From: Verrucomicrobiia bacterium
GTDB lineage: Bacteria; Verrucomicrobiota; Verrucomicrobiia; Palsa-1439
Reading direction: 5' to 3'
DNA length: 64,000 nucleotides
Assembly: GCA_022072455.1 (NCBI GenBank)
Contig: JAJVHY010000016.1
Span: forward strand, 6,032-70,031
Shown piece after piece: positions 47,398 through 52,267 of the stretch (within the stretch, counting starts at the first letter, position 1; the number at the start of each line of letters is the position of its first letter). A program made the translations under genes and the position numbers. Below the pieces are notes generated by a model. It saw only the letters and a program-made list of their open reading frames with translations, made no database searches and was not told where the DNA came from.

Positions 47398-47507
47398 TAA
47401 AGCCAATTGCCACTCCGTCCGCTTCCGCGGTGAGCTGTCAAATCCGATTCGAGGTTTGACTTGCTCGGCTCATTCTGCTACTTACCGCCCAACAAGGAGG
47501 TCGTTCT

Positions 47508-49952
47508 ATGCAGTCTTTGGGGAATCCCCGTGGGGGAGATGAAGCCACATCTCTGCCGTCGGGTTTTAAGTACTTGGTTGGCGCCGCCGCTCTCTTCATT
47601 GCCGGTTGCTCGGCATTCTTCTCGGTCAAAGGTCTCGGTTTGCTCTTCATCGGCTCGGCCACGGCCGTCATGATCATGGCCGCCAGCCTCGAAGTCGGCA
47701 AACTCGTGGCCGCCTCGTTCCTCTACCGGTATTGGAACGTCATCAGCCGGTCGCTCCGCACCTACCTCTTCATCGCCGTCATCCTGCTCATCGGCATCAC
47801 CTCGCTGGGCAACTACGGCTACCTCGCCCGCGCCTACGAGAAAACCCACACCCGCGTCACCCAGCTCGAAGACCAGATCGTGATGCTGGAAAAGGAAAAC
47901 GCCGACACGCAACGCCAGATTGACGCCGCGCGTGGTCAACTCAACAAGACCACCGACACCGGCAAAGAAAGCCTCGCCAGTCTCCAGGCCCGCATCGCCA
48001 CCGGCACCGCCTCGCTCGACCAAGCCCTCACGCGCCTCCAGGAAAAACGCACCACCGCCCAAGCCCGCCGCGATGCCGACATCACCGCGCTCACGCAACA
48101 ACTGGCCGGCCGCAACGACGCGTTGACCAAAGCGCTCGCCACCGAAGACGCCCTCATTGCCGGCTTCAACGACCAACTCGCCGTCCTCGACCGCGCGGTG
48201 GACGCCTACACCAAACAAGGCGGCCCCGGCTTCTTCAAAGTGGACAGCATCAAAAAAGGCGAAGACCTCCGTGACCGGCAAGCCAAACAACGCGCCAGCT
48301 TGACCGCCCAAATCGCCGAGCACCGCGAACTCCAGGAAAAACTCCGCCTCGAACTCACCGCCAACGTCGCCGCCGCCGACAAAGAAATCGCCGCCGTCCG
48401 GCAACAATTCGACACCAGCCTCGCCGCCCTCGACCTCGAAGAAAAAGAACTCCGCCAAGCCACCAAGGATTCCCTGGCCGGCGTTGAACAACAAGTCGCC
48501 GCCCTTCAAGCCCTCGGCCAGACCACGACCGTTTCCGGCAGCACTGCCATCGAGGCTCTCTACCAACGCATCCGCGCTCGCAACGACGAAATCCGCCACC
48601 TCAAAGATCAAATCGCCGCCACCGACATCGGCTCCTACCGGTTTGTGGCGCGGGCGTTCGACGCCTCGTCCGACAACGTCGTCAAATGGCTGACGCTCGC
48701 GCTCGTGCTCGTGTTCGATCCGCTGGCCGTCTGCCTCGCCGTCGGCTTCAACGTCGCCTTGATGCGCGACTTCGGCGGTAACCGCCGCTCCCCCCTCAGT
48801 GCGCCGGTCACCGAAACCAACGGCAACGGCTCCCGCCGGCCGCGCATGGCGACCATCGGCTTGAGCATCGTCCTCCTCGCTGCCGGCACGGGTGGCATTG
48901 CCGTCGCCGCGCACTACGGTATCGGCTCCTTTCGGCAAGCCGCCCAAAGCAAACACGCCAACCTCGTTCCCGGTAACAGCTTCGCCGTCGTCACGCTCCG
49001 GCCCGACGCCAAACCGGAAATGTTCGCGAACTACATCGGCGCGTTACCGGGCCAGTTGTTCAGCGAATTGCTCAAGAGCGGCTTTGACCAGCACGCCGAC
49101 GTCTACGCCTTTGCCAAATTCCCGGAAAAGAAAACTGACCAGCCCGTCATGCTGGCCGGCCTCGTCGCGCGGGTCACTGACCCGGTCGCCGCCGAAGCCG
49201 CGCTCGCCCGCATGGCCGACCAAATCAGCGCCGCCCTCCGCCCCGGCAACGCCCCCGCCCCGGCCAAAGGCCGCGCGATGATCCGCTTCGGACGCGGCCG
49301 GTATCTCGATTCCGAAGGTGGGTTCTTCACGTTTGGTTTGGTGGATCATTCCGCCGTGCTCCTCGTCGAACTCGAAGGCGATGCCGCCGCGCCCATTGTG
49401 GAAAACGAAATCCAAGCGTGTCTCACCACGCGCATCGACACCACGAGTGATACCGCCGCCAAACTCCCGGCCCGCGCACTGGCTCGCGAAGGTGTGGCCG
49501 GCGTTTGGCTTGATGCCGCGCGGTTCTTCGCCGGTCTGCCCAAGAATGCCGCCGCCGAAGTCCGCTATCAACAACTCCAACGCTTTGTGGATTTTGATCT
49601 CGTCCTGCAACTCAAGCCGGCCGGCGCCGATCACCTCGCCATTACCGCCGACTACGCGTACAAAGCCGACCGGTTCAAAGACCGGCTTCAACCGACCGCT
49701 CTCCAAACGCTCGCCACACTCGGCACCGGCACCGAAGCCGGCCTCGGCGGCCAACTGCTCGACCGGTGCGCCGACACGCTCGACTACGATTCGCTCATCG
49801 AACGCCTGCGCACGATGCTGGGCAGCGCGACTCCGACCGGCGCGCAAGAAGTACTCGTCGAAAAATCGTTCGCATCCGACCGCGAAGCGCAATTCATCGT
49901 CAGCGCCCGTGCCGCGACCCCGACCGGCGCACCTGTCGCTTCGGTGAAGTGA
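47508..49952 (+). CDS. Large membrane protein with phage-like N-terminus, coiled coil and periplasmic domain
   Basis: An 814-residue protein. Residues 20-110 have four hydrophobic segments ('FFSVKGLGLLFIGSATAVMI', 'ASLEVGKLVAASFLYRYW', 'SLRTYLFIAVILLIGITSLG'), a pattern I know from membrane proteins of T4-like phages and cyanophages. A long coiled coil follows (about 115-345), then two helices (about 375-400 and 430-455). The C-terminal 350 residues look periplasmic ('GNSFAVVTLRPDAKPEM') and resemble DUF3352-type proteins. No function assigned. AAGGAGG precedes the ATG, and TTGACT lies upstream. The next gene overlaps as GTGA. Confidence 0.75.
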   Translation: MQSLGNPRGGDEATSLPSGFKYLVGAAALFIAGCSAFFSVKGLGLLFIGSATAVMIMAASLEVGKLVAASFLYRYWNVISRSLRTYLFIAVILLIGITSLGNYGYLARAYEKTHTRVTQLEDQIVMLEKENADTQRQIDAARGQLNKTTDTGKESLASLQARIATGTASLDQALTRLQEKRTTAQARRDADITALTQQLAGRNDALTKALATEDALIAGFNDQLAVLDRAVDAYTKQGGPGFFKVDSIKKGEDLRDRQAKQRASLTAQIAEHRELQEKLRLELTANVAAADKEIAAVRQQFDTSLAALDLEEKELRQATKDSLAGVEQQVAALQALGQTTTVSGSTAIEALYQRIRARNDEIRHLKDQIAATDIGSYRFVARAFDASSDNVVKWLTLALVLVFDPLAVCLAVGFNVALMRDFGGNRRSPLSAPVTETNGNGSRRPRMATIGLSIVLLAAGTGGIAVAAHYGIGSFRQAAQSKHANLVPGNSFAVVTLRPDAKPEMFANYIGALPGQLFSELLKSGFDQHADVYAFAKFPEKKTDQPVMLAGLVARVTDPVAAEAALARMADQISAALRPGNAPAPAKGRAMIRFGRGRYLDSEGGFFTFGLVDHSAVLLVELEGDAAAPIVENEIQACLTTRIDTTSDTAAKLPARALAREGVAGVWLDAARFFAGLPKNAAAEVRYQQLQRFVDFDLVLQLKPAGADHLAITADYAYKADRFKDRLQPTALQTLATLGTGTEAGLGGQLLDRCADTLDYDSLIERLRTMLGSATPTGAQEVLVEKSFASDREAQFIVSARAATPTGAPVASVK

Positions 49953-50875
49953 ACTGGCGCTGGCCCAGCGTGATTCTGGCTGGCGTGTTGGTCATCGGTT
50001 GCCGCACGCCGAGGAAAAATGTGTCCGTCCAGCTGGTGGATGATTATCCCGCAGGCCGGTCTTCTGGCGTAGCTGGTAGGGGCGGCCCGCCGGGCCGCCC
50101 GTTTGGTCCCAGCGCAACGGACGAGTCGACGGCTCGTCCCAACCAAGCAAATTCCACTCCTGCGCCAACAAAAAATAATAATGTCGGAGCGGCCTCGGCG
50201 CCGGCCAGCCTCTCTACCGGTCGGGGCGACCCGCCGGGTCGCCCGTCTGTCTCCAGCGTGACGGACGAGCCGGCGGCTCTTCCCAACCAAGCCAGTTCCA
50301 CTCCTGCGCCAACAAAAAATAATAATGTCGGAGCGGCCTCGGCGCCGGCCAGCCTCTCTACCGGTCGGGGCGACCCGCCGGGTCGCCCGTCTGTCTCCAG
50401 CGTGACGGACGAGCCAGCGGCTCGTCCCTACCACGCGGACCCCGCGTTTGCACCGCCAAGCCCGCCGGCCGATCAAAGGCCCAAACCAATCATGCTCTCC
50501 GCTCTCGGCGGCCCCTTCAGCGCTACCAACCAAACACCATCTTCACTTTCAGTTCCCGGCATCACCCCGGCCACTCGCGCCGGTTCCCCGTCGATCGCCA
50601 ACATCCGACTTCGCATCCCCGACCAACGCAACGGCGCCGAGTCGCTCCTCCATTTCCGGCCCATCGCATTACCGGAAGCTGATGGCAAGCCGCTGGCCTT
50701 GCCGGAGTTGGCCGCGCAACCGATCTACGTCGAACCGCTCTTCGCCACGGAAGCCGAATGGCGCGACTGGCAACTCGCCCGGCAACGCGCCACCACCAAA
50801 ACCCGACAGGCCGAACGCGACAATCTCACCGATGGCCTCCAACGCTTCCTGCAACAAGGGGCGCGCGTTCCGTAA
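49949..50875 (+). CDS. Predicted lipoprotein containing palindromic-element-derived repeats
   Basis: A 308-residue protein starting at the GTG of a GTGA overlap. The N-terminus is a type II signal ('VILAGVLVIGCRTPR', Cys after VIG), so it should be lipidated. Residues 40-165 are low-complexity Gly/Pro/Arg/Ala and consist of three 24-residue segments translated from 72-bp palindromic DNA units, separated by 24-residue spacers ('STPAPTKNNNVGAASAPAS'). The C-terminal third is a compact domain ('ESLLHFRPIALPEADGKPL', 'EAEWRDWQLARQRATT'). No family recognised. It lies between the coiled-coil membrane protein and the porin, and may link them at the envelope. Confidence 0.7.
   Translation: MNWRWPSVILAGVLVIGCRTPRKNVSVQLVDDYPAGRSSGVAGRGGPPGRPFGPSATDESTARPNQANSTPAPTKNNNVGAASAPASLSTGRGDPPGRPSVSSVTDEPAALPNQASSTPAPTKNNNVGAASAPASLSTGRGDPPGRPSVSSVTDEPAARPYHADPAFAPPSPPADQRPKPIMLSALGGPFSATNQTPSSLSVPGITPATRAGSPSIANIRLRIPDQRNGAESLLHFRPIALPEADGKPLALPELAAQPIYVEPLFATEAEWRDWQLARQRATTKTRQAERDNLTDGLQRFLQQGARVP
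50074..50433 (+). repeat. Three 72-bp palindromic elements at a 144-bp spacing inside a coding frame
   Basis: Elements at 50074-50145, 50218-50289 and 50362-50433 are each exactly 72 bp and are separated by exactly 72 bp. Each has two hairpins: a GC-rich one (GGGCGGCCCG/CGGGCCGCCC in copy 1) and one with GACGAGCC/GGCTCGTC arms. The ends are TGGTAGGGGC (or CGGTCGGGGC) and TCCCAACCA/TCCCTACCA, the same ends as the element at 199-291. Copies 2 and 3 with their spacers are almost identical, so one 144-bp unit was tandemly duplicated. All lengths are multiples of three. Confidence 0.8.
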
Positions 50876-50950: not shown

Positions 50951-52267
50951 ATGCGAAAACATACTGTGACGGTCGTCGGTTTGGCAGTTTTGTTAGCGGG
51001 ATTCGCGCACGCCGACGAGGCGGTGGATTACAAGAAGCTTTACGAAGAGCAAAAACAGCGCAACGATGATCTCGAAAAGCGCATCACCCTGATCGAAGAA
51101 CGCGGCAAAGAAGACCTCTACCTTGCCAAAGAAACCGTTCCCGAGACCACCGTTGGTTTCCTCGAAAAAGTTGAGTTGAGCGGCTTCGCGTCCGCCTCCT
51201 ACTTCTACAACTTCAACCGCCCCCTCGACCACGCCAATACCGGGCGCGGCTTTGACGTGAAACACAACGAGTTCATGATCAACAAAGCCGTCCTCACGCT
51301 TGAGAAACCGGTCGAGTACAACGCCTTCGACTGGCAGGCCGGCTTCGCCGCGCAACTCGTCTTCGGTCAGGACGTGGAATACATGCAAGCGTCAGGCCTC
51401 GACTTGGGCAGCAACGGCGACCTCTTCCTCGCCAACGTCACCCTCAACATTCCCATCGGCAATGGCTTGAAGGTCACGTTTGGCAAATACGGCACGATGC
51501 TCGGCTACGAAGCCAGTCTTACCGAAAACAACTACAACTGGTCCGGCGGCAATCAATGGACACTCATCGAACCATTCACCCACACCGGCCTCGCGCTCGC
51601 TTACAAAATCTCCGACGAAGCCGAAGTCCAACTCCTCATCAACAACGGTTGGGACAACGTCACCGACGACAACGGCAGCAAATCGTTCATGGGCTACTTC
51701 AACTACGCCCCCAACGACAACACCAGCTTCACCCTCGTCGGCTACGGCGGCCCCGAAGCCAATAACGATTCCGATTGGCGGCGCGATGCCGAAATTATCG
51801 TCAGCCATAAACTAACCCCGCACCTGACCGGCGTCGTCCAACTCGATTACGGCACCGAATCCGGCGCCCGGGTGATCGGGACCACCTTAACGACGAATTT
51901 CGTTGATCTCGCACAGACAATTCCCGGCAGCGTGGACGCCGAGCCGACTTTGGGCGGTCGCGCTGAATGGTACGCCGCCGGCCTCTGGCTGACTTACGAG
52001 AAGTCGGAAAAGTGGAACGCTACCCTGCGCACCGACTACCTGAACGACAACGACGGCGCGCGCACCTCCCAAGCGCCTTACCGGACCGAGTTCCCAATAA
52101 ACACCGGCCAGGAACTTTACAGCGTCACGCTCACACTCAACTACAAACCGATTCCCGAAATCCGCATCTCGCCCGAACTGCGCTGGGATCGTTCGTCGCT
52201 CCGCACCGCCTTTGACGGCCACCGGGATCAGGTGACTATTGGCGTCGGCGCGGCGTATTTCTACTAG
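50951..52267 (+). CDS. Outer-membrane beta-barrel porin (BBP2/OmpL-like)
   Basis: A 438-residue outer-membrane protein. Signal peptide 1-21 (TVTVVGLAVLLAGFAHA), a short coiled coil (about 25-50, 'KKLYEEQKQRNDDLEKRI'), then a beta-barrel of alternating strands ('VELSGFASASYFYNFNRPLD', 'LKVTFGKYGTMLGYEASL', 'LTLNYKPIPEIRISPELRWD') ending in a C-terminal aromatic (AAYFY), the usual Omp signature. The pattern fits the putative beta-barrel porin-2 family. The ATG follows GGAGGAGACAC. It lies 75 bases after the lipoprotein and just upstream of the aminotransferase, so it may admit amines or amino acids. Substrate inferred. Confidence 0.85.
   Translation: MRKHTVTVVGLAVLLAGFAHADEAVDYKKLYEEQKQRNDDLEKRITLIEERGKEDLYLAKETVPETTVGFLEKVELSGFASASYFYNFNRPLDHANTGRGFDVKHNEFMINKAVLTLEKPVEYNAFDWQAGFAAQLVFGQDVEYMQASGLDLGSNGDLFLANVTLNIPIGNGLKVTFGKYGTMLGYEASLTENNYNWSGGNQWTLIEPFTHTGLALAYKISDEAEVQLLINNGWDNVTDDNGSKSFMGYFNYAPNDNTSFTLVGYGGPEANNDSDWRRDAEIIVSHKLTPHLTGVVQLDYGTESGARVIGTTLTTNFVDLAQTIPGSVDAEPTLGGRAEWYAAGLWLTYEKSEKWNATLRTDYLNDNDGARTSQAPYRTEFPINTGQELYSVTLTLNYKPIPEIRISPELRWDRSSLRTAFDGHRDQVTIGVGAAYFY

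Follow-up and report, generated by a model that had tools for sequence, protein, structure and literature searches.

Gene Layout at the Locus

The gene studied here is located at positions 47508..49952 of the window, i.e., of the whole stretch of 64,000 nucleotides that was analysed, and, like its parts and the lipoprotein gene described below, lies on the + strand. It starts with ATG, is preceded by a Shine-Dalgarno-like AAGGAGG read from the sequence (47494..47500) and encodes a protein of 814 aa. The open reading frame is real and has orthologs, the nearest of which, from the Verrucomicrobia assembly AM_0936, is 72–73% identical over the full length; this kinship assigns the genome to Verrucomicrobiota. 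The first five orthologs aligned (818–870 aa) repeat the layout of the window protein, which confirms the preliminary description of a reading frame that joins a membrane block, a coiled coil and a periplasmic domain.

The AF2 model of the 814-aa protein contains helices at residues 18–46, 51–74, 81–236, 245–371 and 388–421. Alignments, profiles and AF2 place TM1, TM2 and TM3 at residues 18–46, 51–74 and 81–108 (47559..47831), a block homologous to phage proteins. It is followed by a predicted coiled-coil hairpin, consisting in the AF2 model of an outgoing arm (residues 109–236; 47832..48215), a turn marked by conservation as well (residues 237–244; 48216..48239) and a returning arm (residues 245–371; 48240..48620). 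The coiled coil was thus found as first described, except that it covers about 260 residues (about 109–371) and not 230. TM4 (residues 388–421; 48669..48770), identified by alignments, profiles and AF2, is also phage-homologous and carries the invariant F403-D404-P405-x-A407. TM5 (about residues 447–470; 48846..48917) occurs in the bacterial form only and is predicted from the alignment and from hydropathy peaks at 455–461 and 463–464, the pLDDT of the AF2 model being below 50 over residues 441–519. The added C-terminal domain was present too, with about 320–330 residues after TM5 instead of the 350 claimed before. Profile searches and conservation delimit it to residues 483–800 (48954..49907); it was seen in the fusion only and is predicted to be periplasmic.

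The next gene (49949..50875) is translationally coupled, its start overlapping the stop of the hairpin-protein gene by 4 nt. It encodes a Pro-rich lipoprotein with the lipobox VIGC, Arg at +2 and a charged C-terminal tail. The gene after it, taken as 50951–52267, encodes a porin (PF07642 BBP2, E 3.5e-64).

The Pro-rich linker of the lipoprotein (50075–50459) is encoded by three 97-nt copies at a spacing of 144 nt (48 codons), and palindromes such as GGCGACCCGCCGGGTCGCC lie within these copies. When up to two mismatches were allowed, the genome contained the palindrome 9 times in forward and 7 times in reverse orientation, whereas its reversed control gave no match. Five of the matches fall inside the lipoprotein gene, and several represent the two strands of one place. 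By its sequence, the linker repeat looks like a REP-type element within a coding sequence.

Relation to Phage Membrane Proteins

The 814-aa protein matched 13 of 50,697 phage records in a tblastn search (E 1e-24 to 3e-8). In eight of them the match came in two pieces, running from the N-terminal helices through TM4, and in five the N-terminal block alone was matched. The records belonged to Xanthomonas phage XacN1, Stenotrophomonas phages RAS14 and CM1, Salicola phage SCTP-2, Pelagibacter phage Mosig (Kyanoviridae), a Microcystis phage, four Flavobacterium records and three uncultured phages. A profile built from phage proteins identified homologs in at least 589 confirmed stretches of IMG/VR. 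When a viral-only profile (63 sequences) was compared with a bacterial-only one (6 sequences), hhalign gave a probability of 100 and an E of 3.4e-52 over 254 columns, which, together with the tblastn values, bears out the proposed kinship to phage proteins. DUF4407 (PF14362), in which the order of helices and coil is similar by eye, was used as a control for this comparison. It had no profile match, the hhalign probability being 0.4 with a single protein and 6.4 with a thin two-sequence profile, and was not supported as a superfamily.

The homologous unit comprises TM1-TM2-TM3, the coiled coil and TM4. The phage likeness noticed earlier for the N-terminal block therefore holds for that block but does not end with it, and the label "T4-like" is too narrow because the genomes of several matching phages exceed 300 kb. 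Among 65 aligned sequences, S39, G42, L61, K65, W76, Y86, T98, S99, G101, G104 and L106, as well as F403, D404, P405 and A407 in TM4, are invariant, and E62 is nearly so. The window protein has the TM1–3 signature of the phage membrane-hairpin family (S39, G42, K65, T98/S99, G101 and G104, with E62) and, like all 69 of the 69 distinct complete viral proteins, D-P-x-A in TM4 beyond the coiled coil. Phage proteins such as Mosig_00157 (QOI69118.1), XacN1 ORF242 (BBA65390.1), immuto35A_85 (QQO92003.1) and SCTP-2 gp195 (ASV44210.1) share TM1–3, the coiled coil, TM4 and the invariant residues with it. In contrast to the bacterial form, the aligned phage proteins have neither TM5 nor the C-terminal domain, and their TM3–TM4 span is about half as long or shorter.

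None of the Pfam cut-offs was reached by the window protein or seven phage homologs, and none of the NCBIfam cut-offs, for which the scan covered window proteins only, by the window protein. PHROG gave weak matches on helix-plus-coil stretches (best E 0.00094); those to holin and Rz-like spanin were not counted as family membership. Foldseek returned 563 PDB matches at E ≤ 10, the best having an E of 9.5e-3 and none reaching 0.001. Of the 25 BFVD matches at E ≤ 0.001, the first six were uncharacterised or nameless, and tape-measure and SMC-like coiled-coil proteins were among those placed lower. In the titles and abstract openings that the literature searches listed, no description was recognised as this family. 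A further homolog lies on the Pseudoalteromonas plasmid NZ_CP072685.1 (L105 7992–9197), where it is annotated as "chloride channel protein". Judged by sequence, the hairpin protein belongs to an uncatalogued membrane-protein family shared with tailed phages.

Distribution and Phylogeny of the Bacterial Form

Across the phylum, profile searches detected the fusion protein in 5 of 387 genomes; the counts were 2 of 11 for the window's order and 1 of 144 for another order. In one family of the class it was found in 34 of 79 genomes, including all six of genus g84 and 28 of the 55 of genus g47 (the latter counted from the table). The loci examined came from 34 of the 37 matching genomes, the fragmentary f24 members G451, G471 and G473 being left out. 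One further protein, L163, was excluded from the conservation and tree counts, leaving 33. The bacterial proteins (33 without a run of N) are 814–878 aa long.

The distance between TM3 and TM4, measured from TSxG to DPxA, separates the two forms. It is 110–164 residues (median 147) in the phage type (n = 87, near-duplicates kept in) and 306–331 (median 331) in the bacterial type (n = 34), with no overlap. The window protein thus departs from the norm of the phage family, in which the span is 110–164 and the C-terminal domain is missing, by its longer span and by having this domain.

In a tree of 108 unique cores, the 30 unique bacterial sequences formed one clade (IQ-TREE support 100, FastTree 1.0); the sampled bacterial proteins are monophyletic. 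The median distance was 0.62 inside this clade versus 2.53 among viral cores (IQ-TREE, sampled pairs). The sister of the bacterial clade in IQ-TREE was one viral sequence, L027 (support 74), a grouping absent from FastTree. One acquisition by Verrucomicrobiota fits this tree. As the core tree is unrooted, we infer, rather than read from it, that the transfer was from phage to bacterium.

The C-terminal domain is conserved among the bacterial members. Searched alone, it was found in 2 of 240 genomes, both of which carry the fusion, and it was confirmed in none of the 20 IMG/VR stretches tested. Assignment to DUF4836 was not supported (best E 0.22, in one of six), and DUF3352 gave no profile match with the one sequence compared. 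The AF2 model of this domain alone, built from two sequences, had a mean pLDDT of 41.3 and was therefore kept out of the fold search.

Predicted Hairpin Fold and Topology

In the AF2 model (mean pLDDT 63.5, pTM 0.40), TM3 and the outgoing arm form one helix (81–236), which is followed by the turn (237–244) and the returning helix (245–371). By ten-residue blocks, the pLDDT was about 86–95 in the membrane part (70 in block 11–20), 67–93 in the arms and 52–60 in the turn. The alignment over the added coil length consisted of two sequences (P0001 and L003), so the arms are read mostly from the sequence pattern. A helix rises 1.5 Å per residue, and an arm of about 127 residues would accordingly measure about 19 nm.

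Among the 33 proteins, conservation was 0.79 at residues 221–262 around the turn versus 0.66 and 0.61 in the arms, which suggests a contact point at the hairpin tip. The short TM4–TM5 linker (residues 419–482) was poorly conserved (score 0.475).

The mean net charge of the TM2–TM3 loop was +1.8 in bacterial and +2.3 in viral proteins, and that of the stretch after TM4 was +1.8 and +0.7, respectively. At the hairpin ends it ranged from +0.1 to −1.6 (33 bacterial and 123 viral proteins, after 11 of 134 viral proteins without the search motifs had been dropped). These net charges agree with an N-terminus in the cytoplasm and a hairpin in the periplasm, although by Lys and Arg counted alone the bacterial hairpin ends are not depleted (5.6 over two 20-residue stretches). 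Together with the model, they lead us to infer an antiparallel coiled-coil hairpin placed in the periplasm.

The Lipoprotein Partner and Other Neighbours

In 33 of the 34 bacterial loci, the hairpin-protein gene is followed by a lipobox ORF whose start lies at −4 to +13 nt relative to that gene's stop; at the remaining locus the junction is hidden by a run of N, beyond which there is a lipobox stretch. A stricter signal-peptide filter was passed at 27 of the 34 loci. By the looser of these two lipobox tests, 31 of 32 hairpin genes were followed by such an ORF versus 9 of 220 other genes in the same loci (Fisher p 1.7e-30). The control genes, called as the longest ORFs by a simple routine, include spurious ORFs; two loci, L103 and L159, were lost in the calling, hence n = 32. 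The pairing of the hairpin gene with a lipoprotein is real, and the coupling proposed in the preliminary description is borne out.

The bacterial lipoproteins (204–520 aa where complete) are rich in Pro and Ala and weakly conserved, so that no binding surface can be named on them. Several end in a charged, helix-like tail, which is missing in L102. A regular expression found Asp at +2 in none of the 33 lipoproteins, the first of two possible Cys being taken for L003. Under the +2 sorting rule of E. coli, this points to the outer membrane as their predicted destination.

Meanwhile, the porin was present at the window locus only (1 of 34), so it was rejected as a partner, and the suggested co-occurrence of the porin with the other two genes did not hold. 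In most loci the lipoprotein gene is the one recurrent direct neighbour of the hairpin gene, and no lysis enzyme was detected at E 1e-5 among 10 neighbours of three bacterial loci. In the nearest relative (L003 4616–6532), where there is no porin, the pair is directly followed by mreB (PF06723, E 8.8e-153) and mreC (PF04085, E 6.9e-45). This neighbourhood places the pair, at that one locus, on the side of cell-wall growth.

Gene Context in Phages

This analysis covers the top 80 of 589 viral loci and the top 80 of 446, a non-random choice with short flanks. A glucosaminidase homolog was located close upstream of the hairpin gene in 16 of 134 distinct phage-type loci, in 15 of them at position −1. 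Two of these glucosaminidases match PF01832, and a third matches PHROG endolysins. An overlapping lipobox ORF lies directly 3′ of the hairpin gene in 7 of the 16 glucosaminidase loci versus 16 of 1596 control genes. It should be noted that the phage lipobox pattern was widened after a first look at these loci; the control genes were then counted again under the widened pattern. The stricter version had given 5 of 87 and, over all distinct loci, 4 of 134 versus 20 of 1582 control genes, which is not clearly above chance.

The order of glucosaminidase, hairpin protein and overlapping small lipoprotein ORF was seen in L021, L025, L038, L040, L054, L055 and L075. Of four such phage lipoproteins scanned, three had no PHROG match and one matched a family of unknown function (E 0.0076). 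We regard these seven loci as candidate lysis cassettes on the basis of gene order, which recalls the Rz/Rz1 spanin cassette as outlined in an excerpt of PMC6116005. An adjacent lipoprotein ORF was found in 7 of 133 phage loci overall and in 0 of the 117 without an upstream glucosaminidase found, so the phage core is perhaps independent of a lipoprotein. As most phage homologs lie outside the glucosaminidase context, the function of the core may be wider.

Discussion

Starting from what was computed here (kinship to phage proteins, jump in length, pairing with a lipoprotein and monophyly of the sampled bacterial proteins), we tentatively predict, at a shade below an even chance, that the hairpin protein is an inner-membrane strut acting together with an outer-membrane lipoprotein. 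In Verrucomicrobiota, an inner-membrane protein shared with phages would have gained length and a fused periplasmic domain. The anchor would consist of four helices, from which TM3 and TM4 would extend into the periplasm as paired arms of an antiparallel coiled-coil hairpin. Arms of about 19 nm would be roughly long enough for the tip to reach the outer membrane. TM5 would return the C-terminal domain to the periplasm, where it would provide a second contact. The lipoprotein, predicted to reside in the outer membrane, would bind either the tip or the C-terminal domain, and the pair would bridge or space the two membranes. The contact between the two proteins and their bridging role are deduced from these features, and the trans-envelope assembly predicted earlier appears plausible.

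One likeness among known systems is that to the two-component spanins. Rz is anchored by a single N-terminal TM and has its other end free in the periplasm. Like the bacterial pair, Rz/Rz1 combines an inner-membrane coiled-coil protein with an adjacent or overlapping lipoprotein gene, and some of the phage hairpin homologs likewise lie behind a glucosaminidase or endolysin gene. Unlike Rz, however, the hairpin protein has 4–5 predicted TM segments and a coil between TM3 and TM4 that returns to the inner membrane; because of this multi-TM anchor and returning coil, we do not count it as a spanin by membership. The bacterial form also differs from Rz/Rz1 in lying on the chromosome, and the scan of 10 neighbours at the three loci revealed no lysis gene. 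By analogy, it may nevertheless work in a spanin-like way as regards geometry. That Verrucomicrobiota once captured an envelope-breaching, spanin-like lysis hairpin of a phage, more than doubled it to the length of the periplasm, fused it to a new periplasmic domain and retained it beside an outer-membrane lipoprotein, a lytic bridge thereby becoming a lasting structural one, is a more specific history, which we consider rather unlikely.

An envelope transport or lipid-transfer route, in which the membrane Glu, Lys and Asp would serve as a transport or energy-coupling site, seems to us unlikely by a somewhat wider measure. In the 65 sequences, K65 (invariant) and E62 (nearly so) of TM2, together with D404-P405 of TM4, would suit such a site. 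The layout would suit it too: PqiABC, as presented in an excerpt of PMC10897342, consists of an inner-membrane part, a periplasm-crossing part and an outer-membrane lipoprotein, and bridges of this type share their three-part layout with the hairpin pair. However, the hairpin protein has no MCE domain match, no sequence relation to PqiABC was found, and the window protein stays below the cut-off of every transporter, MCE and ExbB/TolQ model (one amino-acid transporter model gave 14.9 bits against a cut-off of 284). The phage form, moreover, lacks the C-terminal domain, and the lipoprotein is the sole gene that recurs directly beside the hairpin gene in most loci.

The conserved tip, the conserved C-terminal domain and the lipoprotein pairing would also be expected of a periplasmic sensor, in which the tip and the C-terminal domain would monitor the envelope and the lipoprotein would act as an outer-membrane detector, by analogy with RcsF. 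RcsF is an outer-membrane detector lipoprotein. We hold a sensor to be improbable, as the protein has no cytoplasmic signalling domain and its TM4–TM5 linker is short and poorly conserved. Phage defence, i.e., superinfection exclusion by a captured phage membrane protein, would agree with the phage homology and the predicted envelope location, but is at least as improbable given the weak, coiled-coil-type PADLOC matches of the window protein (LeoC E 0.0023, LmuB E 0.059), the lack of any PADLOC match for 10 neighbours at three loci (window, L101 and L003) and how common the protein is in one family (34/79 genomes; 6/6 in genus g84).

What is new here is a bacterial variant of an uncatalogued phage membrane family. 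Environmental phages commonly carry this family, although the proteins scanned reached no Pfam cut-off and had no convincing PHROG match, and its cellular branch combines an almost uniform gain in length with a constant lipoprotein neighbour. If the pair does bridge the two membranes, cells would have put a viral envelope part to architectural use, and comparing the short and the long class would offer a ready test of a periplasmic ruler.
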